Both the position numbers and the translations under genes were made by a program. The notes under the pieces are model-generated. The model did no database searches and had not been told where the DNA came from. It saw only the letters and a list, made by a program, of their open reading frames with translations. Shown here in pieces: positions 2,956-57,203 of a stretch of DNA of 64,000 nt (the first letter of the stretch is position 1; each line of letters starts with the position of its first letter). This DNA is from Lautropia sp. SCN 69-89 (GTDB taxonomy: Bacteria > Pseudomonadota > Gammaproteobacteria > Burkholderiales > Burkholderiaceae_E), in the NCBI GenBank assembly GCA_001724855.1, contig MEED01000008.1, positions 1 to 64,000 on the forward strand, read 5' to 3'.

Positions 2956-2976
2956 GGCCCCTGTCCCGCTTCTACC

Positions 2977-7221: not shown

Positions 7222-7279
7222 GGGCGGGTCGCTCGTCGTCGGGGCTGCGCAGTTCGATCGCGATCCGGGAAGGCGATCG

Positions 7280-8254
7280 TCACGGCGATGCTGCCGGCCC
7301 CACTGGGTCGGACTGCCGTGGCACACCCTGGCCAGCGTCGGGCGGCGGCGCGCGCTGAAAGGAAGATTCTCGCGAAGAGCTCCCCAGCAGACGCTCCAGC
7401 CTTTCCAGGCGATGCCGGTGCAGCGTGGTGATTGCGTAGAAGTTTTCGTGCAGCTGGCTGGACTGGCCCAGCACGGTGAGGTGGCCGGCGCGCAGTTCGT
7501 CCTGCACCACCACCTCGGGCAGCACGGTCAGCCAGCCGCTGTCGCGCGCAATCAGGCGCAACATCGCCATGTCGTCCACCTCGGCGCGCACGCGCGGCTT
7601 GACGTCGGCGGCCATGCACAGCGCATCGAACTGGCCGCGCAGCGCATGCCGCGGCCCGGGCAGCGCCACGTCGAGACCGTCGAGGTCCTCGGGCACGCGT
7701 AGCGTTCGACCCGCCCAGACCGCTGTCGGGCCCATCAGGGAGATCGCCTGGCTGCCCAGAAAGCGGCAGTGCAGCGGTCGTTCCGCGTCGGCGGGCACCG
7801 CCTCGTTGGCCAGCACCACGTCGAGTTGATGCTGGAGCAGCCGCTCCAGCAGGTACTCGAGCGTGCCCGACTCCAGTGTCAGCGTGACTGACGGGTCGGC
7901 CAGCAGCGGACGGATCCAGTTCTCCTTGTAGTTGCGCGACAGGGTGCTCACGCCGCCCACCCGCAGCCGCTCCAGTCCTTCGGTTCGGCCCTGCAGCCGT
8001 CCCAGCATCTCCTGCCCCAGGCCGAAGATGTTCTCGGCGTAAGCCAGAACCATCTGCCCGGTCTCGGTGAGGGCGAGGCGCCGGCCCTCGCGTGCGAACA
8101 GCGCCTCGCCCAGCCGGTCCTCGAGTTGGCGGATCTGGGCCGACAGCGCCGACTGCGAGGTATGCAGCTCCTGTGCCGTCCGCGTGAGGTGCCTGGTGCG
8201 CGCTACCCGCCAGAAGTAGAAGAGATGGTGGAAGTTGAGCTGTTCGAGCTTCAT
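7280..8254 (-). CDS. LysR-family transcriptional regulator (NhaR-like)
   Basis: This 324-residue protein has an N-terminal winged HTH (residues about 5-64, QLNFHHLFYFWRVARTRHLT then SQSALSAQIRQLEDRLG) and a LysR substrate-binding domain. The N-terminus, with FHHLFYFW, is typical of NhaR-like members. It is divergent from dabB with 97 bp between the start codons, so it is the likely regulator of the dabBA operon. The effector cannot be read from sequence; sodium or bicarbonate status would be reasonable guesses. The C-terminal 25 residues are Pro/Ser-rich and probably disordered. Confidence 0.85.
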   Translation of the reverse strand: MKLEQLNFHHLFYFWRVARTRHLTRTAQELHTSQSALSAQIRQLEDRLGEALFAREGRRLALTETGQMVLAYAENIFGLGQEMLGRLQGRTEGLERLRVGGVSTLSRNYKENWIRPLLADPSVTLTLESGTLEYLLERLLQHQLDVVLANEAVPADAERPLHCRFLGSQAISLMGPTAVWAGRTLRVPEDLDGLDVALPGPRHALRGQFDALCMAADVKPRVRAEVDDMAMLRLIARDSGWLTVLPEVVVQDELRAGHLTVLGQSSQLHENFYAITTLHRHRLERLERLLGSSSRESSFQRAPPPDAGQGVPRQSDPVGPAASP

Positions 8255-8278
8255 TGTTCGATTAAATATATGGTTGTG

Positions 8279-8292
8279 TTCATTTCATTGAA
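8279..8292. promoter_or_regulatory. LysR-type T-N11-A dyad in the lysR-dabB divergent promoter
   Basis: TTCA-N6-TGAA is an inverted repeat containing a T-N11-A spacing, the classic LysR-box form. It lies in an A/T-rich island (about 8255-8310) between two GC-rich genes. Its position, 25 bp from the regulator start and 60 bp from dabB, fits a regulator binding site. The assignment is inference from pattern and position. Confidence 0.45.
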
Positions 8293-8351
8293 TTTTACAG
8301 AATTATCCGGGGTCGCCACCATTCCGACTATCGACCGCCCTGGGGATCCCG

Positions 8352-9947
8352 ATGACAGCGTTCACCTTTCTGGCCCTGGCCGGCGCGCTGGCACCGGCAG
8401 CCCTGATGGGCGCGGCTGCGCTTGCAGCGCGCTCGCTGCCGCGGCCGCCCGTTGCCTGGGCCGTCTTCCAGGTGCTGTCGACCATTTCGCTGCTGGCGGC
8501 CGCGGCTTCCCTGGCTGCCGTGCTGGCACCGGGCTCGGTCGCAGCCGCCGCACTCGCGCCCGGCCTGGCGTCGAGCCTGCCGGGCGCCTGGATGGCCGTG
8601 CTGGTGCAGCTGCTGGGCCTGGTGATCGGCGCCTTTTCGGCCCGCTACCTGGAGGGCGAGCCTAGCCAGCCGCGCTATGTCGCCGCGCTGGCCGGTGTGC
8701 TGGCTGCCGTGCACCTGCTGCTGCTGGCCGACCACTGGCTGGTGCTGATCGCGGCCTGGGCGGCCGTGGGTCTGGCGCTGCAGCAACTGCTGTGCTTCTA
8801 CGCCGACCGCCCATTCGCGCTGTTGGCCGCGCACAAGAAGCGCATCGCCGACCGTGCGGCCGATGCGCTCCTGCTGTGCGCGGCGGCGCTGGCCTGGTCG
8901 CAGGTGGGTAGCGGTTCGCTGACCGAGCTGAGGGTGCATCTCGCCGCCGTCGAGGCCTCCGTCGCGCTGCAGGCCAGTGCCGTATGCCTGGTGCTGGCGG
9001 CGATCCTGCGCACCGCGCTGCTGCCTGTGCACGGCTGGCTGATCCAGGTGATGGAGGCACCGACGCCGGTGTCGGCGCTGTTGCACGCGGGCGTGGTCAA
9101 CCTCGGTGGCTTCGTGCTGATTGGTTTTGCGCCGCTGCTGGAAGCCGCGCCGCTGGCCCGCGGGCTGCTGGTGGTGTTCGGCCTGGCCACCGCAGCGCTG
9201 GCCGGACTGGTGATGCTCACGCGCGTGAGCATCAAGGTGCGGCTGGCCTGGTCCACGGTGGCGCAGATGGGCTTCATGCTGCTCGAATGCGGCCTGGGCC
9301 TGTATACGGTGGCGCTGCTGCACCTGATCGGCCATTCGCTGTACAAGGCGCACACTTTCCTGGCCTCTTCCTCGGTCGTGCGCGACAGCAAGCTGCAGGC
9401 CATGCGCGGCCACTTCGTGCCCGCGGCTCCGAGTCTGCTGACTGCGCCCCTGGTGGCTGGCGGCATCGTCGCATCGATCGACCTCGTGCTGATCTCGCTG
9501 AGGGGCGCCGCCGCCTGGCCGTGGTGGTGGAGCGCGGTGCTGGGCCTGGCCTGGGCCCCATTGCTGTGGCTGCCCGCCGCGCCCCGGCAGGGCATGGCGC
9601 GCGCCCGTCTCTGGCAGGCGGCAGCGGGCGTGATGCTGGTGGCTCTGCTTACGGTGCTGGCCGGCCTGGTCCACGTGGTGCCGCTGGGCGTGCACGACGC
9701 GCCGAACCCGCTGGCCGGTCTGCTGGCGCTGGCCGGCATGGCTGCCCTGTACCTGTGCCTGGCAATGCTGCAGTGGCGGCCGCGGGCGCTGTCGGCCTGG
9801 CGCCACTGGGCCTACGCCGGCTTCTACGTCGACGAGTTCTACACCCGCCTGGCGCTGCGCCTGTGGCCCGGTGGCTGGGCCCTCCCGGCCGCACATGCTG
9901 CGCCCGCCCGGCTGAGCGGCACGTGGCCGCTCACCGCTTCGAAATGA
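8352..9947 (+). CDS. dabB: DAB inorganic carbon transporter, membrane subunit DabB
   Basis: This 531-residue, very hydrophobic protein is related to the NuoL/MrpA proton-translocating subunit family, with the family motif IGHSLYKAHTFLASSSVV and more than twelve membrane segments. In the DAB system (dissolved inorganic carbon accumulation, first described in Halothiobacillus; MpsA in staphylococci), the cation flux through DabB is thought to drive bicarbonate formation by DabA. The stop codon overlaps a possible ATG of dabA at 9944, and dabA follows directly. The divergent LysR gene probably controls it. An isolated NDH-5-like protein next to a DUF2309 gene is diagnostic of DAB. Confidence 0.9.
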   Translation: MTAFTFLALAGALAPAALMGAAALAARSLPRPPVAWAVFQVLSTISLLAAAASLAAVLAPGSVAAAALAPGLASSLPGAWMAVLVQLLGLVIGAFSARYLEGEPSQPRYVAALAGVLAAVHLLLLADHWLVLIAAWAAVGLALQQLLCFYADRPFALLAAHKKRIADRAADALLLCAAALAWSQVGSGSLTELRVHLAAVEASVALQASAVCLVLAAILRTALLPVHGWLIQVMEAPTPVSALLHAGVVNLGGFVLIGFAPLLEAAPLARGLLVVFGLATAALAGLVMLTRVSIKVRLAWSTVAQMGFMLLECGLGLYTVALLHLIGHSLYKAHTFLASSSVVRDSKLQAMRGHFVPAAPSLLTAPLVAGGIVASIDLVLISLRGAAAWPWWWSAVLGLAWAPLLWLPAAPRQGMARARLWQAAAGVMLVALLTVLAGLVHVVPLGVHDAPNPLAGLLALAGMAALYLCLAMLQWRPRALSAWRHWAYAGFYVDEFYTRLALRLWPGGWALPAAHAAPARLSGTWPLTASK

Positions 9948-9970
9948 CTTCGCGCCACGTGGAGATCTGC

Positions 9971-12514
9971 ATGGACACCATCGAGACGATCGCCGCGCAC
10001 GACCTGGCCGCCGCCCGCGACGCCGCCGCTGCGTTGCGCCCGCGCATCGAGGCCGCCTGCGAGCAGGCGTGCCGCGCGATCGCGCCGGCCTGGCCGCTCG
10101 ACCGCGCGATCGCCGTCAACCCGTATTGGTCGCGCATCGGTCGCCCGGTGCGCGAGGTGGCCGCCCGGATGGCGGTGCTGGGCGGCATCCGGGTCCTTCC
10201 GCCGCGGACCTACCTGAAGCAGGCCTGGGAGGAAGGGCGCATCGACGACAGTGACCTGGCCTGTGCATTGGGCGAGCTTTCCGCCGCACGCACTGCGGGC
10301 CTGACGGCCGCGCACTGCATCGAGGCGCTGCAGCGTGCCGTGCCGGTGGTGCAACTGCCGCTGCTGATCGACGTGCTGGACGATGACCCGGCGCGCCATG
10401 CGCGGCTGTCGTGGCGGCAGGCCATCACGCATCAGGTCGGCCAGACCTGTGCGGCCTACTTCGACCAGCAGCAAGCCGATTGGCGGCCCGAGCGCGCGCA
10501 AGGCCTGTACGCGTTCTGGCGCGACACGCTCATGCACGACCACAGCATCGGCGTGCTGATGGGCCTGCCCGAACTGGGCCGCAGCCTGGCAGCGTTGCCC
10601 CAGGCCCGGCAGGATGCCGAGCAGTGGGTGCTGCAGCGCCTGGGCCTGCCCGAGGTGGTGTGGGCCGATTACCTCGAGGCGGTGCTGCTGACCGTGAATG
10701 GCTGGGCGTCGTGGTGCGCCTACCTGGGCTGGCAGGCCGGGCTGGAAGGCCGCAGCGACGCGCACCTGCGCGACCTGCTGGCCATCCGCCTGGCCTGGGG
10801 CGTCATCCTGCTGGAGTGCAAGGACGATGCCGGCGCCCGGCGCGCCTTCGCGGCCCTGCAGGCCGACTGGTCCCAGGCCCACACGCGGCTCCTGCAGGCC
10901 GAGCGCGCACTGCTGGTCGACGAGGTCTGGCAGGGTGCACTGGAGGTTGGCTATCAGCGCGAACTGGCCCGGAAGCTCGGCATGGCCACCGGTGCTGCCG
11001 CGGAGATCCAGGCCGCCACGCCGGCCGTCGAGGTGCAGGCGGGGTTCTGCATCGACGTGCGCAGCGAGCCCATGCGCCGCGCACTCGAGGCAGTCTGGCC
11101 CGCCGTGCAGACGCTGGGCTTCGCGGGCTTCTTCGGTCTGCCGGTGGCCTACACGCCGCTGGCGACATCGGTGCGCCGGCCTCAGTTGCCGGGCCTGCTG
11201 GCGCCCGCGATGGAAGTCACCGACCGGGTCCTCGCGGCCGACGACGATGGCGCCGACGCCGGCTTGCAGGACAGCGCCGCGCAGGCCCGGCGCCAGCGCT
11301 TTGCCGGGTCCCAGCCGTGGCAGGCGGCCAGCCGCTGGCCTGGCGCGGCCTTCTCCTTCGTGGAAGCCGCCGGGTTCAGCTACCTCGGCAAGCTCGGCCG
11401 GTGGCTGCGCCCGAACGCGGCCGCCCGTGCGCGCGACGACCTGGAAGGTCTGCCCGCGCGCTATCGCCCGGTGTGTCGCCCGTCGCTCGCCGGCCTGGAC
11501 ATCGAGGCCAAGGTGGCCCTGGCCGCGCGCGTGCTGCACGCGATGGGCCTCGACACTGACATCGCGCCGTTGGTGCTGCTGGTCGGCCACGGCAGCCAGA
11601 GCGAGAACAACCCCCAGGCCGCCGCGCTCGATTGCGGCGCCTGCTGCGGCCAGACCGGCGAGGTCAATGCCCGCGTCCTTGCGCGGCTGCTCAACGAGCC
11701 GGCGGTGCGCGAGGGCCTGCGCGCACAGGGCCTCGACATCCCGGCGGCCAGCCGCTTCGTGGCCGCGCTGCACAACACCACCACCGACGAGATCGAGGGT
11801 CTGGACCTCGATCTGCTGCCGCCCGATGCCCGCGCGCGCTGGGAGCGATTGCAGGCGGTGTTCGCACAGGCCTGCGACCAGGTGCGGCGCGAACGCGCGC
11901 CCAGCCTTGGTCTTGACCCTCGCCTGCCGCACGCGCAGCTGCTCGCCCAGCTGCGCCGCCGCGCCAGCGACGGTGCGCAGACGCGGCCGGAGTGGGGGCT
12001 GGCGGGCAACGCCGCCTTCGTCATCGGGCCGCGTCACCGCACCCGGGGCGTGGTGCTCGACGGCCGCAGCTTCCTGCACGACTACGACGCTGCGCGCGAC
12101 GCGGACGGCAGCGTCCTCGAATTGCTGATGACGGCGCCCATGCTGGTCACGCACTGGATCAACTGGCAGTACCACGCCTCCACCTGCGACCCGCAGCGCA
12201 TGGGCAGCGGCAACAAGGTGCTGCACAACGTGGTGGGCGGCCAGATCGGCGTGTTCGAGGGCAACGGCGGCGACCTGCGCATCGGCTTGTCGCGCCAGTC
12301 GCTGCACGATGGCCAGCGCTGGGTGCACGAACCGCTGCGGCTGACCGTGGTCATCGACGCGCCGCGCGAGGCGATCGAGCGGGTGATCGCGCGGCACGCG
12401 GTGGTTCGCCAGCTGCTGGACCATGGCTGGCTGCACCTGTGGCGCTTCGATCCGGAGCAGCTCGTGCGCTATTCGGCCGGGGATTGGCTCGCGCTGGGTC
12501 AGGCGGCCTCGTAG
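9971..12514 (+). CDS. dabA: DAB inorganic carbon transporter, DabA (DUF2309, carbonic-anhydrase-like)
   Basis: This 847-residue soluble or membrane-associated partner of DabB is a distant relative of beta-carbonic anhydrases. The four residues reported as the zinc site in the Halothiobacillus protein are present: Cys360 and Asp362 in FCIDVRSEP, His540 in LVGHGSQSENNP and Cys555 in LDCGACCGQ. The His-Cys spacing of 15 and the CxD spacing are the same as in that protein. The start at 9971 is favoured over 9944 because GGAG lies 7 bases upstream of it; 9944 would overlap the dabB stop as ATGA and add 9 residues. Function: vectorial CO2 hydration to trap bicarbonate in the cytoplasm. Confidence 0.92.
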   Translation: MDTIETIAAHDLAAARDAAAALRPRIEAACEQACRAIAPAWPLDRAIAVNPYWSRIGRPVREVAARMAVLGGIRVLPPRTYLKQAWEEGRIDDSDLACALGELSAARTAGLTAAHCIEALQRAVPVVQLPLLIDVLDDDPARHARLSWRQAITHQVGQTCAAYFDQQQADWRPERAQGLYAFWRDTLMHDHSIGVLMGLPELGRSLAALPQARQDAEQWVLQRLGLPEVVWADYLEAVLLTVNGWASWCAYLGWQAGLEGRSDAHLRDLLAIRLAWGVILLECKDDAGARRAFAALQADWSQAHTRLLQAERALLVDEVWQGALEVGYQRELARKLGMATGAAAEIQAATPAVEVQAGFCIDVRSEPMRRALEAVWPAVQTLGFAGFFGLPVAYTPLATSVRRPQLPGLLAPAMEVTDRVLAADDDGADAGLQDSAAQARRQRFAGSQPWQAASRWPGAAFSFVEAAGFSYLGKLGRWLRPNAAARARDDLEGLPARYRPVCRPSLAGLDIEAKVALAARVLHAMGLDTDIAPLVLLVGHGSQSENNPQAAALDCGACCGQTGEVNARVLARLLNEPAVREGLRAQGLDIPAASRFVAALHNTTTDEIEGLDLDLLPPDARARWERLQAVFAQACDQVRRERAPSLGLDPRLPHAQLLAQLRRRASDGAQTRPEWGLAGNAAFVIGPRHRTRGVVLDGRSFLHDYDAARDADGSVLELLMTAPMLVTHWINWQYHASTCDPQRMGSGNKVLHNVVGGQIGVFEGNGGDLRIGLSRQSLHDGQRWVHEPLRLTVVIDAPREAIERVIARHAVVRQLLDHGWLHLWRFDPEQLVRYSAGDWLALGQAAS

Positions 12515-12656
12515 GGCGGGGGAGGGGTTCGCAGGATGAAGATCATTCGCGGCCCTACCGCTGGCATGTCGGCGATGCCGAAGAGGTGTTCGGCGTGAAC
12601 GCAAAGAAGATATACTTCGCACGCACCTTTAACCCGGAACCGGAGAATCCGCAACC

Positions 12657-12962
12657 ATGAGAGAAATCATCCGCTCGAGAACAGTGGAGATCGCGGCGGC
12701 AAGCCAGGCGGTCCTCTCGACCATCGACGTCCGCACGATCGCGCCGAACGAGCGTCACGACCTGATCTTCTCCTCCTTCAATGCCCTGCCGCAGGGAGCT
12801 GCTCTGGAACTGGTCAACGACCACGATCCGTCGCCGCTGCATCGCCAGTTCAAGTCGAATTACCACGGTCTCTTCACCTGGGACTATGTCGAGCAGGGAC
12901 CGGATCTCTGGCGCGTACGCATCGGGAAGGCCCCCGGCAACTGCTGCGGCAGTTGCAGCTGA
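12657..12962 (+). CDS. DUF2249 domain protein
   Basis: This 101-residue protein has the DUF2249 pattern: DVRTIAPNERHDLIFSSFNA then LELVNDHDPSPLHRQFKSNY and FTWDYVEQGPDLWRVRI. It ends in a short Cys-rich tail (NCCGSCS). The family is small, cytoplasmic and often linked to nitrogen-oxide or redox metabolism genes; its biochemical role is not established. The His in NDHDPSPLHRQF is the most conserved feature. It lies 142 bp after dabA with its own leader, so co-transcription is uncertain. It converges on the DEAD-box helicase gene, with 27 bp between stops. Confidence 0.85.
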   Translation: MREIIRSRTVEIAAASQAVLSTIDVRTIAPNERHDLIFSSFNALPQGAALELVNDHDPSPLHRQFKSNYHGLFTWDYVEQGPDLWRVRIGKAPGNCCGSCS

Positions 12963-12989
12963 TCGAACGTCGCCAGCCTCCGATATCTC

Positions 12990-14750
12990 TCAACGCGCAG
13001 GGCGGCGCGGCCCCTTCCGGTCCGGCTTCGGACTCCCGCGCGGCGGCGGCGGGCTCTTGCTCGCCACGAGACTCAGCGTCTGTCCGCGCAGTCGCACCCT
13101 CGACAGCCGCTCGATCACCGCCCGCGGCAGCGCCGCGGGCAGGCGGACCAGCGAGTAGTTCGCGCGGATGTCCACGCCATTGATCTGCGACCCATGCAGC
13201 CGCGCCTCGTTGGCGATCGCACCCACGATGTGGCCGGGCTGCACGCCGTGCCGGTGGCCCACCTCCAGGCGCCAGGTGATCTGCCGGCCATCGTCCTCGA
13301 ACTCGTAGCCGCCCTCCGGCACCGGCGGCAGGTCGCTGCCGGGCTCCGAGTCGCCGCGCGGCCTGCGCGGTGCCTCTTCCCCGGCCCGCATCGACTCACC
13401 GGCGGGTGGCGCACCGGTGCGCGTGGGCGCCGCGGACTGGACGGGTGCGCCGCCCTCGACCAGCGAGGCGATCGCGGCCGCGACATCCAGCAGGTCGGCG
13501 CCGGTCTCCAGCGCGACCTCCTGCACGGCCTTGCGATGGAATTCCGCCGAGCCGGCGGCCAGCGCCTCCCCGATGCGCGCCTTGAACTTCGCGAGGCGCC
13601 GGGTGTTCACGTCGTCGACCGTCGGCAGGCTCAGCGGCTCGATGCTCTGGCGCGTCGCGCGCTCGATCAACCGCAGCAGGTTGCGTTCGCGCGGCGCGAT
13701 GAACAGGATGGCCTCGCCGCTGCGTCCCGCCCGGCCGGTGCGGCCGATGCGATGCACGTACGACTCGGTGTCGTAGGGCACGTCGAAATTGACCACATGC
13801 GTGATGCGATCCACGTCGAGCCCGCGCGCCGCGACGTCGGTGGCGACGAGGATGTCGATCTTGCCGGCCTTGAGCTGGGCGATCGTCCGTTCGCGCTGCG
13901 ACTGCTGGACGTCACCGTTGAGCGCCACGGCCGCGAAGCCTCGCGCCTGAAGCCGCTCGGCCAGGTCCACGGTGGATTGCCTGGTGCGCACGAACACCAG
14001 CATGGCGTCGAAGTCGGCCACCTCGACGATGCGCGTGAGGGCGTCCAGCTTGTGCAGCCCGCTGACCAGCCAGTAGGACTGCCGGATGTTCGCCGCCGTG
14101 CCCGATTTGCCCTTGATGACGATCTCGCGCGGGTCCTTCAGGTGCGTCTTCGCGATGCGGCGGATGTCCGGCGCCATCGTGGCCGAGAACAGCGCCACCT
14201 GCTTCTGCTGCGGCGTCTGCGAGAGGATGGCCTTCATCGCATCCGCGAATCCCATCGCGAGCATCTCGTCGGCCTCGTCCAGCACCACGCATGTGATGCC
14301 GTCGAGCTTCAGCGTGCCGCGGTCCAGGTGGTCGATGACGCGGCCGGGCGTGCCCACGATCACCTGCGGGCCACGCTCGAGGGCATTGAACTGGGGTAGG
14401 TAGCTCTGGCCACCGTAGATCGGCAGCACGTGGAAGGCGGGCTGCCCGGTCGCGTATTTCTGGAATGCCTCGGCGACCTGGATGGCGAGCTCGCGCGTGG
14501 GCACCAGCACCAGCGCCTGCGGAACGCGCCGCTTCATGTCGATCCGCGCGAGGATCGGCAGCGCGAACGCCGCGGTCTTGCCCGTGCCGGTCTGCGCCTG
14601 GCCGAGGATGTCCGCCCCCTCGAGCATCGCCGGGATGGTGGCGGCCTGGATCGGCGAGGCGGTTTCGTAGCCAATGGCCCTCACCGCGCGGACGATGACC
14701 TCCGGCAGGTCGAGGTCGCTGAACAGGACGGCGTCGGTATCCGAAATCAT
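12990..14750 (-). CDS. DEAD-box ATP-dependent RNA helicase (DeaD/CsdA-like)
   Basis: This 586-residue protein has all helicase motifs: Q-motif (YETASPIQAATIP), AQTGTGKT, PTRELAIQ, VLDEADEML, SAT, and motif VI HRIGRTGRAGR. After about residue 380 comes a linker and then a DbpA-like RNA-binding domain (ITWRLEVGHRHGVQPGHIVG ... LVRLPAALPRAVIERL), and it ends in a basic Arg/Pro/Gly tail. This layout matches DeaD/CsdA, which unwinds RNA in ribosome assembly and cold adaptation. The start at MISDTDAVLFSDL was chosen because the longer open frame has no helicase-like sequence. It stands alone. Confidence 0.92.
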   Translation of the reverse strand: MISDTDAVLFSDLDLPEVIVRAVRAIGYETASPIQAATIPAMLEGADILGQAQTGTGKTAAFALPILARIDMKRRVPQALVLVPTRELAIQVAEAFQKYATGQPAFHVLPIYGGQSYLPQFNALERGPQVIVGTPGRVIDHLDRGTLKLDGITCVVLDEADEMLAMGFADAMKAILSQTPQQKQVALFSATMAPDIRRIAKTHLKDPREIVIKGKSGTAANIRQSYWLVSGLHKLDALTRIVEVADFDAMLVFVRTRQSTVDLAERLQARGFAAVALNGDVQQSQRERTIAQLKAGKIDILVATDVAARGLDVDRITHVVNFDVPYDTESYVHRIGRTGRAGRSGEAILFIAPRERNLLRLIERATRQSIEPLSLPTVDDVNTRRLAKFKARIGEALAAGSAEFHRKAVQEVALETGADLLDVAAAIASLVEGGAPVQSAAPTRTGAPPAGESMRAGEEAPRRPRGDSEPGSDLPPVPEGGYEFEDDGRQITWRLEVGHRHGVQPGHIVGAIANEARLHGSQINGVDIRANYSLVRLPAALPRAVIERLSRVRLRGQTLSLVASKSPPPPRGSPKPDRKGPRRPAR

Positions 14751-14803
14751 CGGGAGGGCTCGGTGGCAGGCGAACCAGAGAGTGTATTCGGGACGCCGGC
14801 CCT

Positions 14804-14983
14804 TCACTTCACCGTATAACCGCGGCCCTCCATGCAGGCTCCCACCGCACGGTTGTAGGTATCGATTTGCGAAGTGCGAGCGCCCTGTGCCTGTTGCTGC
14901 TGGGCCTGGGCTTGCGCCGCCTGATTCTTGCGTGCCCTGGCGCCGCCCGCCATGCCGCCGATCATCGCTTTCATGCTTCGCAT
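14804..14983 (-). CDS. Small Gln-rich protein with GYTVK terminus
   Basis: This 59-residue protein starts at an ATG preceded by a perfect GGAGGT, 7 bases upstream, which decides the start. Layout: a short Gly/Met segment (AMIGGMAGG), a Gln/Ala-rich stretch (about 15-35), and a C-terminus CMEGRGYTVK. That terminus is a frequent ending of small glycine-zipper or surface-associated proteins in proteobacteria. No signal peptide is convincing. The family is not named with confidence; it could be a shortened member of a glycine-zipper family that has lost its N-terminal export signal. Confidence 0.6.
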   Translation of the reverse strand: MRSMKAMIGGMAGGARARKNQAAQAQAQQQQAQGARTSQIDTYNRAVGACMEGRGYTVK

Positions 14984-15034
14984 GTTCCGTACCTCCTTCA
15001 CTGCTCGATGCCCACGTAGCGGGAACGGCCAGGA

Positions 15035-15853
15035 TCAATAGACCACGACCCGGTCGCCGACCTTCACCTGCTCGTACAGCCACTTGGCGACCCGGTAGTC
15101 GCGCAACTGGCTGCAGCCGTGCGAGCCGCTCTCGTAGCCCTTGTCGGCGAAGTCCTGCGAGAAGTGGATGGCCACGTTGCCCTGGTAGAAGATCGCGTAG
15201 GGCATCGGGGTGCGCTCGCCGAAGATCTTCGAGACCGTGTCGCTGTTCATGTACCAGATGCGGAACTCTCCCTCGGGGCTCTCCCAGCCGGGCATGGCAA
15301 AGCGCGCCTCGCGCGTGAAATGCACCTTGCCGTCCACGGCGCCCTGGTACAGGCCGACCTGCCGGAGCCGGTGCTGCAGCTCCTTCATGTAGCCATCCTG
15401 CGTGCGGGCCGTGAACCAGGGCCCGACGTCGACGCTGTTCAGCTCGGCCTCGGTGGGGCGGCGCGAACGCGCCAGCAGGGCGTCCCAGGTGGGCTGATCG
15501 ACCACGCCGGTGGTGCGCAGGCCGCTGTCTCGCTGCAACCTGGGCACCGCCTCGCGCGTGAGCATGCCGAAGCGGTCATCGACGTCATGGATGGCCAGGT
15601 ACCTAGCGTGGCGCAGCCGTACCTGCAGCTCGCACACGCGGGGCGATCGCATGCGAAAACGCAGTTCCGGCCCGAGCGGATCAGGGTTGGCGAGCGAGCC
15701 CGGTGTGGCCTTGGCCGCACTGTAGGTCCAATGGGCGGACGCCGGCATGAGTGTGGCCTGGGCAGAGCGAGCCTGTACGGGCCAGGCGACAAGGCCGAGT
15801 GCCGCCGCCGTGGCGGCGGCGAGAACGGAGTGGGAAAGACGCCGGGATGTCAT
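15035..15853 (-). CDS. L,D-transpeptidase with peptidoglycan-binding domain
   Basis: This 272-residue exported protein starts with a signal peptide (MTSRRLSHSVLAAATAAALG ... VQA). A peptidoglycan-binding-1 domain follows (about 65-125, LQVRLRHARYL ... DDRFGMLTREAVPRLQRDSG). The C-terminal part is a YkuD-type L,D-transpeptidase (PGWESPEGEFRIWYMN, then MPYAIFYQGNVAIHF and the catalytic SGSHGCSQLRD). It should crosslink peptidoglycan or attach proteins in the periplasm. The stretch that normally opens the YkuD fold is short: a second peptidoglycan-binding-like start (ELQHRLRQVGLYQGAVDGK) runs straight into it. Alternative starts are 15871 and 15892; 15853 puts the signal peptide at the N-terminus. 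Confidence 0.85.
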   Translation of the reverse strand: MTSRRLSHSVLAAATAAALGLVAWPVQARSAQATLMPASAHWTYSAAKATPGSLANPDPLGPELRFRMRSPRVCELQVRLRHARYLAIHDVDDRFGMLTREAVPRLQRDSGLRTTGVVDQPTWDALLARSRRPTEAELNSVDVGPWFTARTQDGYMKELQHRLRQVGLYQGAVDGKVHFTREARFAMPGWESPEGEFRIWYMNSDTVSKIFGERTPMPYAIFYQGNVAIHFSQDFADKGYESGSHGCSQLRDYRVAKWLYEQVKVGDRVVVY

Positions 15854-16034
15854 GAAAGAAATATTATCCATGTCCCTGGCGTACGGCCGCAATCATCGCC
15901 TCCGGTATCCGCCGCTGCACGTGGAATGGACACGCCGTGCGCCGACAGGACCGGCACGCCGACCCGCAACGGCGCGCGAACGCGGGTTGCTCGCCGTGCC
16001 GGCGCGAATCCTGGCATTTGTCGCCTTTTCGGCG

Positions 16035-16423
16035 GACACGATGCCGACCGAGGCGCGCATCGAAATCGACGGTACGATCGTTCGCGTGACGAAGGGTGCT
16101 GGCGCGTCGTGGCCGATGCCTGCGGATTGCCGCAGGCCGCGCGACGGGCGCTGGACCAAAGGCCTGGATGCTCGTCGAGGCGCTGGCGCTGCTTGCCTTC
16201 GGTTGGTACCGCTTCGGGCTGGAAGACGACGCCGGGGGCGACAGACCTTCGCATTCCAGACGCTGCTCTTCTTCGCATTGTTTTCGCTGGTGTCGATTCG
16301 GGAGCGACGCGCCTTCCAGGCGTCGCGACCCGGCCGTGCGCTGGCGATCGCGATGCTCGCCGATGCCTCTGCTCGCTCTGGTCCAACGATCGTGTCAAAG
16401 TGGCGATGCTGGCGCGCAGCTGA
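16035..16423 (+). pseudogene. P-type ATPase remnant, fragments in three frames
   Basis: Pieces of a P-type cation/proton ATPase can be read in order but in different frames. These are MPTEARIEIDGTIVRVTKGA (nucleotide-binding domain, near 16041), AWMLVEALALLAFGWYRFGL (a C-terminal membrane segment), then TFAFQTLLFFALFSLVSIRE with RRAFQASRPGRALAIAMLAD, and finally NDRVKVAMLARS at the very C-terminus (ending near 16423). Deletions and frameshifts join them, and the phosphorylation domain is absent. No function is expected. The remnant lies between the divergent L,D-transpeptidase and the paiB-like gene. Confidence 0.7.
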
Positions 16424-16460
16424 GCGATTCCTGTCCCGTCCCGATATCGGTCACCCCACG

Positions 16461-17084
16461 ATGTACATCCCCGCGCACTTCGCCGAGACCCGGCCCGAAC
16501 ATCTGCAACGCATCATCCGCGAGCACCCGCTCGGCGTGCTGGTCACGCAGGGCAGTGCCGGACTGGACGCCGATCACGTTCCGTTCGAGTTCGACCCCGA
16601 TGCGGGAACGCACGGGGTGCTCCTGGCTCACGTGGCCCGCGCGAATACGCTGTGGCAGCGCTGTCCCACCGGCACGCCGGTCATGGTCGTCTTCCGCGGT
16701 GCCGAGGCCTACGTTTCGCCCAACTGGTACCCGAGCAAGCACGAGGCGCACCGCCAGGTTCCGACCTGGAACTACGAGGTGGTGCACGCGCACGGCACGA
16801 TCACCGTGCACGACGACGAGCGGTTCGTGCGCCGCCTGGTCGCGCGCCAGACGCGCCGGCACGAGGCGGCCGAACCCGTGCCCTGGAAGATGGGAGACTC
16901 CGCGCCCGAGTTCATCGACAGCCTGCTGCGCAACATCGTGGGCATCGAGATCGCGGTCACGTCGTTGACGGGCAAGGCCAAGCTCAGCCAGAACAAGGAG
17001 GCACGCGATCGCCTCGGCGCCGCCGCCACCCTCGATTCGCACGGCCTTCAAGAACTGGCCGCAGCGATGCGCGAGACCGGCTGA
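16461..17084 (+). CDS. FMN-binding negative transcriptional regulator family (PaiB-like)
   Basis: This 207-residue protein of the PaiB/FMN-binding split-barrel family begins with the typical MYIPAHFAETRPEHLQRIIR. It also contains LLAHVARANTLWQR, VVFRGAEAYVSPNWYPSKHE, VPTWNYEVVHAHG and the C-terminal GKAKLSQNKEARDR. In Bacillus, PaiB affects sporulation and protease genes, but in most bacteria the role is unknown and it may be a flavin- or heme-linked oxidoreductase. The length is standard. It is a single gene; upstream is the ATPase remnant and downstream is the convergent sorB. Confidence 0.88.
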   Translation: MYIPAHFAETRPEHLQRIIREHPLGVLVTQGSAGLDADHVPFEFDPDAGTHGVLLAHVARANTLWQRCPTGTPVMVVFRGAEAYVSPNWYPSKHEAHRQVPTWNYEVVHAHGTITVHDDERFVRRLVARQTRRHEAAEPVPWKMGDSAPEFIDSLLRNIVGIEIAVTSLTGKAKLSQNKEARDRLGAAATLDSHGLQELAAAMRETG

Positions 17085-17132
17085 GCGTCGGGCGCACTTT
17101 CGACTCGACGGGCGGACGGAAGCGAGCGCCGC

Positions 17133-17444
17133 TCAGCGCCCCGAAACCGCCTTCGCAACGAAGTCGGCCACCGCCTCGATCTGCTGCTCGCTCAGCTGGT
17201 CGGCAAACCTGGGCATCACGCCGATTCCGGTGCGCACGGCTTCCATGACGCGCGCCTTGTCGGGCTTGAGCTCGTCCAGCGACGGGCCGATGGTTCCGGT
17301 CGCGCCGGCCGCCTCCAGCGTATGGCACAGCGCGCAGGGCGGCTGCGCAGCCTCGGTGAACACCTTGCGTCCCAGCTCGTCGGCGGAGGCGGTGCCGGCG
17401 AGGGCCAGCAGCCACGCCAGCCCCGCAGCCTGCAACCGCCTCAT
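17133..17444 (-). CDS. sorB: Sulfite dehydrogenase cytochrome c subunit (SorB-like)
   Basis: This 103-residue c-type cytochrome has a signal peptide (MRRLQAAGLAWLLALAGTASA), one heme site CALCH at residues 37-41 and a probable Met ligand in GIGVMPRFADQLS. It starts in an ATGA overlap with the sorA stop, which indicates translational coupling. In the periplasm it would take electrons from the molybdenum subunit and pass them to the respiratory chain. SoxD would be larger (diheme), so SorB is the better fit for a single-heme subunit. Confidence 0.8.
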   Translation of the reverse strand: MRRLQAAGLAWLLALAGTASADELGRKVFTEAAQPPCALCHTLEAAGATGTIGPSLDELKPDKARVMEAVRTGIGVMPRFADQLSEQQIEAVADFVAKAVSGR

Positions 17445-18637
17445 GCGACGGTGACCGCGACCGCGTGGTCGCGCCAGCCGTTGTGCGCATAGGCGCGCTC
17501 GTTCTCGACGCGCAGTTCGGGCTGCACCGTGCCGTCGACCGCGATCGCCCGGCTGGTGATCAGGTGCTGGCCGGCTCCGAGCGTGACCTGCGCCACGAAC
17601 TGCCGCCAGGCGTAGCGTCCGAGGTGTGGCCCGAAGAGGGTGGCCGCCTGCCACGACTTGCCGCCGTCGACCGACACCTCGACCGCCTTGATCGGGCTGC
17701 CGCCGGTGAACGCGACGCCGTGCACCTGCACCGGGCCGGCACGCAGGGTCTCGCCGCCGGCCGGACCCGTGACGAACGACTTCAGGTTCATGTGCCACAT
17801 GGTGGGCTGGGTCGGGTCGCCCTTGCGGCCGATGTCGCGCACCCGGTAACCCGACTTCTGGATCGTCGCGGAGGTCTCGTCGACCGTGAAGGCGACGCGC
17901 TTCACGTACTTGACGTTGTTCACGCCGTAGTAGCCGGGAACGATCAGGCGCAGCGGACCTCCGTGCGCCAGCGGGACCGGTTCGCCGTTGAGTTCCCAGG
18001 CGAGGAGCGCTTCCTCCATCGCGATCCAGGGCACCGAACGCTCGACCATCACCTTCTGCGGGTCGATGCCCGGCGGGAAGGTTTCGCCGCCGGTGCTGGT
18101 CATGTAGCGCATGCCCTCGCGCACGCCGCCGAGTGCGGCGACGACGTCCCTGACCGGCACGCCGCTCCATAGCGTGTTGCCGGCCGCGCCGACTTTCCAC
18201 TGCGATCCGGAGGCCTTGTGGGCGAAGAAGCCGCGCCCGTTGCCTGAGCATTGCAGCACCATCGCCACGCTGGACAGCCCGATTCGCTTGAGGTCGGCGA
18301 GGGTCAGCGTGCGCGGCTGCGTGACGCCGTCGATCTGCACTTGCCAGGCGTCCCGATTCGCCACGATTGCCGCATCGGGAGCGGCGATGTTGTTGCGCAG
18401 GAAGAGGATGTCGGTGTCGGTGATCCCGCTCGTGCCGAACGCGCTGCGCTGGGTCTCGATCCCGCTCGCGCTGTGCACGATCACGCGGCTGGCGTCCTTG
18501 AACGAGGCCACCGGCGGCAGTGGCCTGGCCTGCGCCAGGCTGGGGCTGCTGAAGCCGCCCAGACCGGCGGCTGCGCCGCCGGCGCTCGCGGCCAGCAGCC
18601 AGCGACGTGCGACATTCACTTCGAGGGCTTCTTTCAT
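17441..18637 (-). CDS. sorA: Sulfite dehydrogenase molybdopterin subunit (SorA/SoxC family)
   Basis: This 398-residue sulfite-oxidase-family protein has a twin-arginine-type leader (ARRWLLAASAGGAAAGLGGF) and the molybdenum-ligating Cys130 in MVLQCSGNGRG. It also has the PGYYGVNNVKYVKRV region of the active site and a C-terminal dimerisation domain (VHGVAFTGGSPIKAVEVSVD). It oxidises sulfite to sulfate in the periplasm. The start is set by a strong AAGGAGGAGG ribosome binding site, and it overlaps the stop of the upstream barstar-like gene (ATGA). Together with sorB it forms a tightly coupled three-gene operon. Confidence 0.87.
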   Translation of the reverse strand: MKEALEVNVARRWLLAASAGGAAAGLGGFSSPSLAQARPLPPVASFKDASRVIVHSASGIETQRSAFGTSGITDTDILFLRNNIAAPDAAIVANRDAWQVQIDGVTQPRTLTLADLKRIGLSSVAMVLQCSGNGRGFFAHKASGSQWKVGAAGNTLWSGVPVRDVVAALGGVREGMRYMTSTGGETFPPGIDPQKVMVERSVPWIAMEEALLAWELNGEPVPLAHGGPLRLIVPGYYGVNNVKYVKRVAFTVDETSATIQKSGYRVRDIGRKGDPTQPTMWHMNLKSFVTGPAGGETLRAGPVQVHGVAFTGGSPIKAVEVSVDGGKSWQAATLFGPHLGRYAWRQFVAQVTLGAGQHLITSRAIAVDGTVQPELRVENERAYAHNGWRDHAVAVTVA

Positions 18638-19122
18638 GACGTTCCTCCTCCTTGTCCTTGTTCCGTGAGGCTGGCCACGGCTGCCGGCGGGTTCCGGAGC
18701 CAGTTGTAGAGCGGGTCGAGCGCGAGCCGCCGCGCCGGATCCAGAAAGACCGCGAAGAACCTCATCCCGCGCTCTCGCCGGCGCGCCGCCGCGGTCCGCA
18801 GCGCATCGAGCAAGGGGACGAGTGCTTCGGGTTCGGCGTGCCCCAGCGATTCGAAGCCGTCGAACAGCAGCACGTGCCCCGGAGCGGGCGACCAGGCCGG
18901 ATCGGCGAGCGCCGTGGCGAACCCGTGCCAGCCGGGCGTGGCGGAGAGGGCAAGTGCCTCGACACAGAGCCGCTGCAGGTTTGCGCGATCGGCATCGCCC
19001 AGCCGAACCCGCGCCATCGGATAGCGGTCAATCGCTGCCGCCTCCTCGAGGGCATCGATCGTCTCGACCCGGTAGACGCCCGAGCGCCGCTCATCGGCGA
19101 GGCGTTCGGCGAGCTTTCCCAT
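18634..19122 (-). CDS. Barstar-family protein coupled to sorAB
   Basis: This protein has 162 residues from the ATG at 19122 (MGKLAERLADERRSGVYRVE). The core matches the barstar (RNase inhibitor-like) pattern: a helix, then TPGWHGFATALADPAWSP, a strand GHVLLFDGFESL, a helix EALVPLLDALRTAAA, and a final strand RGMRFFAVFLD. The 4-bp overlap with sorA makes it the first gene of the sulfite dehydrogenase operon. No barnase-like nuclease is nearby. Several upstream starts are possible (19155, 19161); 19122 is preferred because a sigma70-like promoter covers the others. Its role is unknown; a protein-interaction or maturation role is a guess. Confidence 0.6.
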   Translation of the reverse strand: MGKLAERLADERRSGVYRVETIDALEEAAAIDRYPMARVRLGDADRANLQRLCVEALALSATPGWHGFATALADPAWSPAPGHVLLFDGFESLGHAEPEALVPLLDALRTAAARRRERGMRFFAVFLDPARRLALDPLYNWLRNPPAAVASLTEQGQGGGTS

Positions 19123-19150
19123 CGACAGGCGGAGAACGGCGCATGTGGCG

Positions 19151-19802
<652 letters not shown>

Positions 19803-19960
19803 GAAGCTGTGAACCAATCACCCATGCCCGTCTTGCGCGCCCAGATGCGCCCATTCTTCGTTGCAAATGCTCGCCATATCCCCGATATGGCTGCGCTTTG
19901 CGCCTCGATCGGACGCATCTGGGCACGCCTTCCGGGCACGGCCGATTGATTCACAGCTTC
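19803..19960. repeat. 158-bp imperfect palindrome directly after tadA
   Basis: The element starts with GAAGCTGTGAACCAATCA and ends with GATTGATTCACAGCTTC, its reverse complement with one mismatch. Moving inward, CGCCCAGATGCG pairs with CGCATCTGGG, GCAAATGC pairs imperfectly with GCGCTTTGC, and the exact centre is CCATAT-CCCCG-ATATGG at 19874-19890. The arms are symmetric about 19882 over the whole length, so it can fold into one long hairpin. It looks like a dispersed REP- or MITE-like palindromic unit rather than an ordinary terminator. It starts on the base after the tadA stop. Confidence 0.8.
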
Positions 19961-46959: not shown

Positions 46960-47763
46960 TCAGCCGATGGCCACGTCCAGGAAGAAGGTCAGCGCGAATC
47001 CGACGAACAGCGCCGCGGTGGCGCTGTCGCCGAAGCCCGCGCGATGCGTTTCGGGAATCACCTCGTCGCTGATCACGAACAGCATCGTGCCGGCGGCGAA
47101 CGCGAGAGCCAGCGGCAACATGGCCTGCGAGATTGCGAGCAGCCCGGCGCCGGCCAGCCCGCCCACCAGTTCGACCGCGCCGGTCAGCGCGGCCACGCCC
47201 ACCGCCCGCCCGCGGCTGTAGCCGAGGCCGGCGAGCGACATCGCGACGGCGAGTCCTTCCGGCAGGTTCTGCAGCCCGATCCCGAGGGTGACGCCGAGGC
47301 CGATCGCTGCGTCGCCGCTGGCGGCGCCCACGCCCATCGAAAGCCCCTCCGGGAAGTTGTGCACCGTGATCGCGAAGACGAACAACCAGACGCGCGCGAT
47401 GCGCTCGGGGCCGGGGCCTTCGGGGCCCTTCTGGAAATGTTCGTGGGGTACGAAGCGGTGGATCGCCGCCATCATCAGCCCGCCGGCGATCAGCGCCGCG
47501 ACCACCGCCAGCGCGGCCGCCTTGCGGCCGCCGAACATCGGCTGGGCCAGCGCGAACCCCGGCAGCAGCAGCGAGAAGACAGTCGCAGCGAGCATCACGC
47601 CCGCTGCGAACGCGAGCATCGCGTTGCTGGCGCGAGGGGAGAGCCGGCCGACCACGAGCGCCGGCAGCGCCCCGACGGTGGTGGCGATCGTGCCGCCGAC
47701 GAGGCTCGCCAGCAGGGCGAGCGTCAGTGGCGAGGCGGAATGGAGGAGATCGGGCAGGGTCAT
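46960..47763 (-). CDS. ZIP family metal transporter
   Basis: This 267-residue protein has eight hydrophobic segments and the ZIP metal-site motifs: TVHNFPEGLSMGVG in TM4, GLQNLPEGLAVAM in TM5, and VISDEVIPETHRAG. The His-rich loop is short (HRFVPHEHFQKGPEG). It imports zinc or another divalent metal across the inner membrane. The start at 47763 (MTLPDLLHS) is chosen over 47799 because the latter overlaps no family sequence. It is a single gene. Confidence 0.9.
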   Translation of the reverse strand: MTLPDLLHSASPLTLALLASLVGGTIATTVGALPALVVGRLSPRASNAMLAFAAGVMLAATVFSLLLPGFALAQPMFGGRKAAALAVVAALIAGGLMMAAIHRFVPHEHFQKGPEGPGPERIARVWLFVFAITVHNFPEGLSMGVGAASGDAAIGLGVTLGIGLQNLPEGLAVAMSLAGLGYSRGRAVGVAALTGAVELVGGLAGAGLLAISQAMLPLALAFAAGTMLFVISDEVIPETHRAGFGDSATAALFVGFALTFFLDVAIG

Positions 47764-49381: not shown

Positions 49382-49753
49382 ATGACGACGATCAGGATCA
49401 AACGCGTCTACGAGGCGCCGGCCGACAGCGACGGATTCCGGCTGCTCGTCGACCGCTTGTGGCCGCGCGGGCTCACGCGCGAACAGGCGCGGATCGACGC
49501 CTGGCTGAAGTCGGTCTCGCCATCGAATGAGTTGCGGCGGCGCTTTCATCACGATCCGGCGCAGTGGGACGACTTCCGGGCAAGCTACTTTGCCGAACTG
49601 GAAGCCGCGCCGTCCGCGATTGCGGAACTTGCCGATCTGCTGCGCAAGCACCGGGTGGTCACTTTTCTGTACGGCGCCAAGGACGAGACGTTCAACAACG
49701 CGCGGGCGCTGGTGGAGTTCGTTGGGGCGAAGAAAGGGGCTGGTGTGTCGTAG
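49382..49753 (+). CDS. DUF488 family protein (YeaO-like)
   Basis: This 123-residue protein has the DUF488 pattern RIKRVYEAPADSDGFRLLVDRLWPRGLTREQARID, then LRRRFHHDPAQWDDFRASYF and VVTFLYGAKDETFNNARALVE. The role is unknown. It is the last ordinary gene before the dif region. An open frame on the opposite strand through it belongs to the phage-type gene that has lost its stop. Confidence 0.88.
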   Translation: MTTIRIKRVYEAPADSDGFRLLVDRLWPRGLTREQARIDAWLKSVSPSNELRRRFHHDPAQWDDFRASYFAELEAAPSAIAELADLLRKHRVVTFLYGAKDETFNNARALVEFVGAKKGAGVS

Positions 49754-50158
49754 CGGGAACAAAGCCGGGCTCTTTTCCCGGCCAAGCTTTCGATCCCCCC
49801 ACAAATCCCCCGCGCAAGAGGTCGGGGGGCTTGTGGGGGGGTCGATGATCAGGAAATGCGCGGGCGCGGCAGCCCCATGCGGCTCTGTTTTGCAGGGTGT
49901 GCCGCGCATCGCGCGGCGACGGCCGTTCGACTTGCACGGATGCTGGGTGATTCGCACCGGGGCTATGGTCGACAGATCTGTTTCGCGCAGCATCAGCAGC
50001 TCGGGGACCCACCACGGCGTGCGCCGCTTGCCGGTCATCCAGTCGTGAACCGTTCTCGGGTGGCGGCGCAGCTGCCGCGCGATGGTTCGCAGGGGTTTTC
50101 CTGCCGCGTAGGCCCGCAGGGCGGCGGGGTCTCCGTATCGGAGGTTCGGGTAGATCAT
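49754..50158 (-). pseudogene. Filamentous-phage-type HTH protein without its own stop codon
   Basis: The frame starts at ATG 50158 with GGAG 5 bases upstream: MIYPNLRYGDPAALRAYAAG, then an HTH-like KPLRTIARQLRRHPRTVHDW followed by MTGKRRTPWWVPELLMLR. This matches small DNA-binding proteins of filamentous phages integrated at dif sites in Betaproteobacteria. After about 75 residues the sequence becomes Arg/Pro-rich and passes through a strong hairpin. The frame has no stop until 49289, antisense to the DUF488 gene, so the 3' end of the gene was probably lost. It may still be expressed up to the hairpin. Confidence 0.5.
49795..49841. repeat. Strong hairpin inside the phage-type frame
   Basis: CCCCCCACAAATCCCCC (49795-49811) pairs with GGGGGGCTTGTGGGGGG (49824-49840) with 15 of 17 matches, leaving a 12-base loop. 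It lies about 40 bp after the DUF488 stop and inside the minus-strand phage-type frame. It could be a terminator for either gene, or a single-strand hairpin such as filamentous phages use for replication or packaging. Confidence 0.7.
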
Positions 50159-50175
50159 GAGGGCTCCACAAACGC

Positions 50176-50211
50176 GACAGGCCCGAAATACCCTTGGGCT
50201 CCGGGCCTGTC
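50176..50211. repeat. Hairpin beside dif
   Basis: GACAGGCCCG (50176-50185) pairs perfectly with CGGGCCTGTC (50202-50211), loop 16. It sits 17 bp before the dif-like site and 18 bp upstream of the phage-type start codon, within the leader of that gene. It could attenuate transcription or be part of a phage att region. Confidence 0.7.
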
Positions 50212-50227
50212 TATGAATTCGTTTGCA

Positions 50228-50255
50228 AGTGCGCATAATGTGTATTATGTAAAGT
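50228..50255 (+). other. dif: XerCD dif site (chromosome dimer resolution / phage att)
   Basis: The 28-bp site has the XerC-side half AGTGCGCATAA, centre TGTGTA and XerD-side half TTATGTAAAGT. Compared with E. coli dif the XerC half differs at one base, the centre at one and the XerD half at two. dif lies in the replication terminus, where XerC/XerD resolve chromosome dimers with FtsK; filamentous phages such as CTXphi use the same site to integrate. Its neighbours here are a phage-type HTH gene and two hairpins. Only one copy was found in the window, so it may be an empty or reduced prophage site. Confidence 0.8.
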
Positions 50256-50789
50256 CATTGGGCCTCCAGGCTGCGGGGACACCGTCGCGCTGCCTGACCG
50301 GATTCGTTGTGCCACCCTGCCGACCTGATCAAGTCGATCGCCATCAACTCCTCAACGCGGCGTAGCGAACCATCCATCGATCCGGCGCCGGAAACACCAG
50401 GTTGCGCAGGTGTGAAAGGTGGCACCCAGAATTCTTTCGTACTAACAGCGTCTTAGATCTGCAAACTGTAGTGCTTTATGAATATTTGCGTCGCGAATGA
50501 CGAATGCCTTGGCTCAGCGGCAAGGCGGCGGAATTACTTCGTGTGAATTAAGATAAAAGCGGTCTACCACATTGATTACATGGCATATATTTGCGAGCGC
50601 TCTGCCCTAAACAGTCGATCTCGGTGTGGGCGCCTCGTTCGACCTTAAGCACCGCCCAGCGGAATTGGCGAATTGCCAGGCAGCGAATCGTCGCCGTGTC
50701 GAGCGCAGGCGCGCAGCGGACCTGACCTGCTGAGTCCGTTCGAAGCCGCGCCGGGATCCTGAGGCGCGCGAATGGCTGGCGTTGGGCCA
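50256..50789. other. Non-coding, lower-GC region after dif
   Basis: About 530 bases have no convincing gene on either strand. The A/T-rich part around 50430-50600 (for example AATTAAGATAAAAGC near 50546) contrasts with the GC-rich neighbours. No second dif copy, tRNA or transposase was found. It may be a decayed phage flank. Confidence 0.5.
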
Positions 50790-51320
50790 TCAAGAGCTCG
50801 CCCTGAGCGCGGGCTCGGTGCGCCGCTTCCACAGTCGCCACCCGAGAAAACCTACCAGCGCGGTGTTGCAGACGACTACCAAGGCGCTTTGCCAGGTCGG
50901 TTCGTGCCAGAAGTGCCGCAGCTCGAACGGCACGTAGATCGCCCCTCCGAGCGCGCCGAGCCATTGACCCCATGCGCGGTCGAGCCACAAGCCGCACGCC
51001 TCGATCCAGCGCAGCCCGATATAGGCCGAGCCGAGCAGGACGGTCGTGCGCAGCGGCGTGACATTCAGTTCGTCGACGTAACGAAGCAGCAGCGCCGGAT
51101 AGTGCGTCGTGGGATCGAGCTGGAAATGCCCGATCAACTCCAGGGCCAGTCGGTGGACATCGTGGTGCACCAGGCTCAGCCAGCCGAGCAACGCGGCCAG
51201 CGCCGCCAGGCCCTTGGTCGCTTCGAAGAGTGCAACGCCTTCCAGCGCGACCCGCGTCGCACGATGCCTCGGTGCGATGACCTCCGGAGTGGCGTGTCGT
51301 GACGAACCGATTCGAAGCAT
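50790..51320 (-). CDS. DUF2127 family membrane protein
   Basis: This 176-residue protein has about four membrane segments: the family-typical ATKGLAALAALLGWLSLVHHDVH, YVDELNVTPLRTTVLLGSAY, GLRWIEACGLWLDRAWGQWLG and ALVVVCNTALVGFLGWRLWK. An AGAAGGG stretch lies before the ATG. The function is unknown. It is the first ordinary gene beyond the dif region. Confidence 0.85.
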   Translation of the reverse strand: MLRIGSSRHATPEVIAPRHRATRVALEGVALFEATKGLAALAALLGWLSLVHHDVHRLALELIGHFQLDPTTHYPALLLRYVDELNVTPLRTTVLLGSAYIGLRWIEACGLWLDRAWGQWLGALGGAIYVPFELRHFWHEPTWQSALVVVCNTALVGFLGWRLWKRRTEPALRASS

Positions 51321-57168: not shown

Positions 57169-57203
57169 CGTCACCCTCCCCGTCCGTGGACTGCGTATCG
57201 GCC

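Follow-up and report, generated by a model that had tools for sequence, protein, structure and literature searches.

The sequence at positions 50228–50255 of the window, by which is meant the whole 64,000-nucleotide stretch of DNA analysed here (bases 1–64000 of contig C8, 181,937 b), is the chromosome-dimer-resolution site (dif) of Lautropia sp. SCN 69-89. The joint explanation that best accounts for this locus, and which we regard as very probable, is a dif at the replication terminus next to what a small phage left behind, in all likelihood a filamentous one of the TLC type. Our confidence in it was slightly higher until the HTH gene next to the site was seen to belong to a family that also occurs with tailless phages, which makes the virion type uncertain. 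The arrangement is ordinary in kind.

The 28-mer, AGTGCGCATAATGTGTATTATGTAAAGT, is read on the forward strand of the window and consists of a left arm (50228–50238), a centre (50239–50244) and a right arm (50245–50255); by the convention for E. coli the left arm is of the XerC type and the right arm of the XerD type. A script count agreed with the preliminary description that 4 of the 28 bases differ from E. coli dif (positions 1, 15, 24 and 27). The genome (G000; 3,808,117 bases in 70 contigs, 95.6% complete) contains this one match at ≤3 mismatches (one forward, none reverse), so that the genome-wide search for dif-like 28-mers proposed in that description ended in a single copy within a 95.6% complete assembly; a reversed-pattern control at the same threshold gave none on either strand. 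A degenerate dif pattern matched the window once, with 0 mismatches, and was found in none of 100 shuffles. At ≤3 mismatches it matched 108 of 150 genomes, that of SCN 69-89 included, with 0 in the control columns, and the site was single-copy in every matched genome except G054, G090 and G149 (two each); the other 42 genomes had no match to the pattern. The exact window sequence was found at ≤3 mismatches in 18 of the 150. Like the proteobacterial dif/XerCD systems described in the available text of PMC2731167, from which the 11-6-11 division is taken, the window site has 28 bases, a 6-bp centre flanked by 11-mer arms, and is present in one copy.

KOPS motifs and GC skew were counted on C8, one of the 70 contigs; the KOPS and their GGG-NA-GGG form are described in PMC5357621. 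The polarity of GGGNAGGG flips around dif, with five copies pointing toward it and none away on the left, and 15 toward and one away on the right (whole contig; Fisher's exact test p = 2.9e-4), and the switch falls between 47752 and 57174. The nearest copy on the left (47752–47759, plus strand) and the nearest on the right (57174–57181, minus strand) are both aimed at dif; the others on the left lie at 12519, 19442, 25971 and 26759, and the others on the right inside the window at 61912 and 62327. With 20 of 21 copies toward dif, GGGNAGGG is second among its 56 letter permutations, after one having two copies. The word GGGCAGGG points toward dif in 12 of 12 cases and heads the list of 6436 eight-mers that have enough copies on each side (counting both orientations), and further G-rich words, such as AGGGNGGG (16/17), also switch at dif.

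Cumulative GC skew, taken along C8 in 1-kb steps, makes a broad turn from rising to falling and peaks near 79 kb, which is 28.8 kb away from dif. Set against the dif collection in the accessible part of PMC2731167, where the dif-to-skew-maximum distance has a median of 7277 bp, a third quartile of 21,445 bp and a largest value of 199,612 bp, this is on the long side, past the third quartile. The GC-skew check suggested earlier returned, on one contig, a weak turn that agrees only loosely, with a peak 28.8 kb off the site, and because the skew is weak and peaks so far away the skew test alone is ambiguous. The same offset and the 95.6% completeness of the assembly are what speak for a pseudo-dif, the real dif being elsewhere, for instance in the missing part of the genome. 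This is extremely improbable, for the KOPS switch lies around 50228–50255, and another genome of the genus (G009) carries an identical 28-mer adjoining the same DUF488 gene and without the 474-bp insert described below. The genome encodes XerD (376 bits, over the cut-off) and a second Xer recombinase (230 bits; both scored against the XerD model), and the left-hand neighbour genes of dif are the same in sister genomes as in the window. The suggestion that the chromosome terminus lies here is borne out by these recombinases and shared neighbours together with the KOPS polarity and the single copy, and the view that dif is the meeting point of two replichores is supported. By the known pathway, FtsK would be led to dif by the KOPS from both sides, and XerC/XerD would resolve dimers there.

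The left chromosomal neighbour of dif is a DUF488 gene (49382–49753, plus strand; start codon chosen by eye) and the right one a DUF2127 membrane protein gene (50790–51320, minus strand). Between the DUF488 gene and dif lies an insert of 474 bp (49754–50227) that is absent from three sister genomes (G005, G009 and G014): there the DUF488 homology stops 54–72 bp from dif, the DUF488 stop of the window being 474 bp away. G009 shares the window's left-hand genes as well as 44 bp rightward of dif (93%), and other members of the genus have different neighbours at dif. The insert contains an HTH gene, its hairpin and a G/C-rich inverted repeat (49790–49845). Bases 49761–49843 are 79.5% identical over 83 b to DNA located some 320 b beyond Zot in an inovirus of G011. 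The inverted repeat has no second copy in the genome; one inverted-repeat pattern was found in two viral contigs and another in none. A phage remnant on the right side of dif was looked for in the window and none was seen; blastn at E 0.01 against the compared loci gave nothing for bases 50272–50790, and one ORF from this stretch had no Pfam match. There is no Zot (PF05707) in the genome and no second half-dif on C8, and the insertion is therefore without a direct trace of its far end.

The conserved part of the HTH gene, residues 1–59, occupies 49982–50158 on the minus strand, with 39 of 59 residues identical to the HTH protein of a viral contig (L118). The preliminary description had a filamentous-phage-type HTH gene abutting dif. 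The gene is present, but 69 bp separate dif from its start codon (50158), and the family libraries do not show a filamentous-phage type, although the nearest homologues are linked to inoviruses. In Pfam, HTH_23 (PF13384, E = 8e-6) alone exceeds the curated cut-off, and the best-scoring PHROG family (E = 0.004 with the long frame and 3e-4 with the 73-aa part) is of unknown function. A structure model (pLDDT 75) retrieved generic HTH folds in a Foldseek search of the PDB, none at E ≤ 0.001. Beyond residue 59 the open frame continues through the insert and then antisense to DUF488, ending at 49289, and has no resemblance to the tails of the homologues; the protein appears, from its sequence, to have lost its own C-terminus, and the copy is probably dead. 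A hairpin (50176–50211, minus strand; −26.0 kcal/mol) lies between dif and the HTH start, and hairpins of −12 kcal/mol or better, as raw fold energies, occur in 8 of 10 HTH leaders examined.

The window HTH is matched in three of the 150 genomes, its own, G002 and G040, the last two having copies that adjoin dif in the same orientation; at E ≤ 0.001 the matches within the genus are confined to G000 and G002 (2/18 genomes). Identity to the window protein is 61% over the aligned part in L118, 50% in G002, 49% in G040 and 44–48% in L119, L122 and G172. Bases 49700–50800 gave no blastn match among 50,697 phage or 72,556 plasmid records. In the phage records a tblastn search with the window HTH found none and one with the L122 HTH found three weak matches (best E = 3e-4); the G040 HTH had no match among the viral contigs.

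The relatives indicate where the gene came from: it is a prophage remnant. L118 (IMG/VR contig IMGVR_UViG_3300048833_000400) is circular, 6294 b long with a 127-b terminal repeat, and carries the HTH gene together with Zot (PF05707, E = 1.2e-20) and a G2P-type Rep (PF23343, E = 2.7e-16). Its half-dif attP, with left arm and centre kept and the right arm degenerate, lies 87 bp upstream of the HTH gene. At 2310–2360 of this contig the attP is seen within an inverted repeat with 9-bp outer arms (by eye), which might fold in single-stranded DNA. A scan of relatives for an intact filamentous prophage at the site, as had been proposed, found in G040, a member of the family, an inovirus that looks complete and stands to the same side of dif; this 6.0-kb prophage runs from a half-dif (L071:4024) to dif (L071:10001) and contains a G2P-type Rep, Zot, the HTH gene and, by eye, a coat-like gene. 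G247 has two HTH copies located among or next to genes of inoviruses (Zot, E = 6.9e-29; Rep, E = 1.1e-15), its half-dif and dif being 9.2 kb apart. In the locus L199 of that genome (1–19968) two inovirus gene sets stand left of dif, and the right side has genes of the L119/G172 type. In the locus L057 of G002 (9991–16984) a lone HTH remnant lies left of dif, and Rep and Zot genes extend rightward to a right-half dif about 7 kb away.

In attP sites of the TLC type, as the available text of PMC4246890 describes them, the XerC site and centre are nearly identical to dif and the XerD site is degenerate. The attP sites of L118 and G040 resemble those of TLC-phi, phi-Lf and Cf1c in the same excerpt in that they keep the XerC arm and centre, with dif rebuilt at the near end; in contrast to phages of this type, the window retains 474 bp, with the HTH gene as sole phage gene. 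The prophage of Cupriavidus taiwanensis STM 6018, set side by side by its description in the consulted part of PMC10011098, is likewise a betaproteobacterial, dif-integrated filamentous phage reliant on host Xer, and is complete, unlike the window remnant.

Among the 150 genomes, Zot (PF05707) was matched 22 times in 20 genomes, and in 13 of the 22 cases dif is no farther than 5 kb away. All 13 belong to the 17 matches with E < 1e-7; of the other four strong matches two are on a different contig from dif and two are at 96 and 672 kb, and the five weak ones are on other contigs or in genomes in which no dif was found. Six of the near-dif genes are left and seven right of the site, with 10 of 13 pointing toward it. 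Far left-half sites were found in G080, G054 and G040 and far right-half sites in G002, G080, G077, G061 and G041; none were found for G134, G145 and G104 (contigs of 7.9–11.9 kb) or for G097. Where far ends were found, those of the left prophages carry a left-half dif and those of the right prophages a right-half dif. Mirrored inovirus genes flank one dif in L099 (G080; 2277–16831) and in L098 (G134). The right-half far ends imply attP sites that keep the XerD arm, a mirror class absent from the three classes set out in the accessible portion of PMC4246890; a limited literature search found nothing on it.

A search for the HTH protein across 399 genomes of the order found at least 13 matches in at least 11 genomes; among the matches listed, six had E ≤ 1.6e-10 (its own genome, G391, G247 twice, G172 and G378). 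In this search, and in that with NF040522 below, at most 11 candidates were scored per genome, and the counts are lower bounds. Eleven proteins were aligned (alignment A4): those of the window, L118, L119, L120 (G040), L121 (G002), L122, L156 (G391), L157 and L166 (both G247), L158 (G172) and L159 (G378). All 11 genes adjoin a full dif (≤5 mismatches) or a left-half dif (1 mismatch), on the same side and reading away from it, the distance from site to HTH start being 69–122 bp; in G002 the site overlaps the HTH gene. No such full or left-half site occurs in 137,937 background bases of C8. The partial alphaproteobacterial matches L123–L127 were left out of the alignment; they have no full dif within 7 mismatches, and the right-half-like sites of L124 and L126 (2–3 mismatches) and the left-half-like site of L127 do not adjoin the HTH gene. 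Also left out were G121 (two) and G080, though beside dif or a half site, and G198, G277, G410 and G346, which have no full dif within 1.5 kb, the G346 gene being a XafT with half sites.

The HTH gene at dif in G172 adjoins a PM2-like tailless prophage with coat protein P2 (two domains, E = 2.5e-31 and 2.8e-15), a GPA replication protein (E = 1.1e-77) and a HerA/packaging-type ATPase. In the locus L200 of that genome the PM2-like genes lie next to dif (9860–19951), and no far end was seen in the stretch examined. L119 (with Rep_1) and L122 (with endolysin-like and glycine-rich proteins) carry related small genes, and not Zot. The HTH family is thus not confined to filamentous phages, and goes with the attachment site instead of the virion. 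Two unrelated virion types have the gene next to attP, which makes a function at the attachment site more likely than one in virion production, and from its position it most likely acts there on integration or excision. The G172 case and the related genes of L119 and L122 also allow that the phage lost from the window was itself tailless and PM2-like and left the same HTH gene. This we consider quite unlikely: the nearest homologues belong to inoviruses or adjoin them (L118, G002 and G040; 61, 50 and 49%), with L119, L122 and G172 at 44–48%, and the inverted repeat of the insert resembles DNA behind Zot in G011. To judge by these likenesses, the lost phage was probably filamentous.

NCBIfam NF040522 is entitled "VC1465 family Xer recombination activation factor", and we take it to be XafT. 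Over the cut-off it finds at least seven genes in at least six of the 399 genomes; at E ≤ 0.001 it matches 173 genomes, that of SCN 69-89 included, mostly through the common HTH part, for which reason only the seven over-cut-off genes were used. The genome has at least two matches to the model (best E = 3.2e-6), the listed place being on C6. XafT, a XerD-activating factor, is encoded by one Vibrio element according to the available text of PMC9765430, and the window HTH may once have been a true XafT, an Xer activation factor enabling a phage to use XerD without FtsK. The XafT-family genes of G120, G223, G386 and G185 share its side and orientation, each left of dif and reading away in an element of about 1.5–2 kb from left-half dif to dif, and that of G346 sits between two left-half sites. 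The two are alike, then, in place, side, orientation and HTH domain, and a profile comparison of A4 with the XafT alignment (A3) gave a probability of 96.4 (E = 1.1e-9). They differ in that the window protein is without the C-terminal DUF3653 domain and without an over-cut-off match; it has no match to NF040522 at E 0.1, and its relative L122 reaches only E = 0.064. As controls, ordinary XRE-type HTH proteins, drawn from sub-cut-off NF040522 matches and hence not independent of that model, scored nearly as well against A4 (94.9, E = 4.7e-8) and better still against XafT (97.8, E = 9.4e-13). A true XafT is accordingly rather unlikely; the gene occupies the XafT place and orientation at dif, and its sequence does not make it a XafT. 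Identification as XafT by sequence alone was dropped, the likeness of A4 to XafT being non-specific by the XRE-type controls.

Within the XafT family itself, one gene of G121 has a right-half-like site adjoining, and G120 has no Zot in its genome. Elements that run from a left-half dif to dif and combine a XafT-family gene with a handful of small ORFs were seen in L168 (928–2510), L170 (852–2910), L172 (815–2338) and L173 (830–2628), and these are, from their gene content, minimal Xer-exploiting elements. A tentative reading, to which we give somewhat less than even weight, is that the HTH-only proteins of A4 are phage-borne Xer factors of a second kind, lacking DUF3653, fixed beside attP, and common to otherwise unrelated Zot-filamentous and PM2-type tailless dif phages that share no virion genes. 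They would switch XerCD between integration and excision, and lone copies such as those of the window and G002 would be phage leftovers. This reading was held to be more doubtful before the tailless G172 case was found.

The lone copies bear equally on whether the window HTH gene has been kept by the host, as a solitary phage regulator that would stop further phages from entering at dif (superinfection immunity). A lone HTH gene with an open frame stands between DUF488 and dif in both G000 and G002, two species of the genus, which counts against the preferred history given below and may mean two scars or functional retention; G391 has a lone-looking HTH gene with a half-dif and adjoining a PIN gene, and the differences between G000 and L118 over 59 codons number 18, 13 and 28 at the three codon positions. 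A parallel is offered by the inovirus XacF1, whose att-region gene corresponds, in the accessible text of PMC5666396, to the immunity determinant of phage Cf; a 5' deletion of this attP-region gene delayed integration and made the prophage unstable. By the same description its ORF12 is a regulator-like gene at the attP of a dif-integrating inovirus, as is the HTH gene of L118 and G040, but there the attP lies inside the gene, whereas in A4 it lies beside the gene and inside it only in G002. Retention is nonetheless distinctly improbable, for the G000 frame has no likeness to the homologues' tails past residue 59, the G002 frame begins on an ATG inside dif with its leader and first codons lost, the codon pattern can reflect a phage past, and matches at E ≤ 0.001 occur in only 2 of 18 genus genomes.

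In the history that we prefer, dif would have received by recombination a small phage whose attP had the XerC arm and centre and no XerD arm; such a phage would be of the TLC type and most likely filamentous. Integration would have placed a left-half dif at the far (left) end of the phage and a rebuilt full dif at its near (right) end, with the phage HTH gene just inside the latter, as is seen in the relatives. A later deletion may then have taken the body of the phage together with its far end, so that 474 bp remained, with the hairpin, the tail-less HTH gene and the second inverted repeat. Insertion and decay in this lineage are what we infer from the site, its uniqueness, the polarity, the homology and geometry in relatives, and the insert-free sites. 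The old prophage scar proposed in the preliminary description accords with the G040 inovirus, which shares its side of dif, the circular inovirus contig with the gene at its attP and the three insert-free sisters, the word filamentous resting on the nearest homologues.

The terminus could thus be placed from a fragmented assembly by means of KOPS where GC skew was too weak, and a lone HTH gene by dif can mark a lost phage. In Vibrio, filamentous and tailless prophages both use dif, as both virion types do here; the consulted part of PMC11630473 leaves open whether the tailless ones use the host recombinases and does not mention a shared att-linked HTH gene. An HTH gene linked to the attachment site and common to filamentous and tailless phages bears on that point, and is a concrete candidate for how both exploit host Xer.
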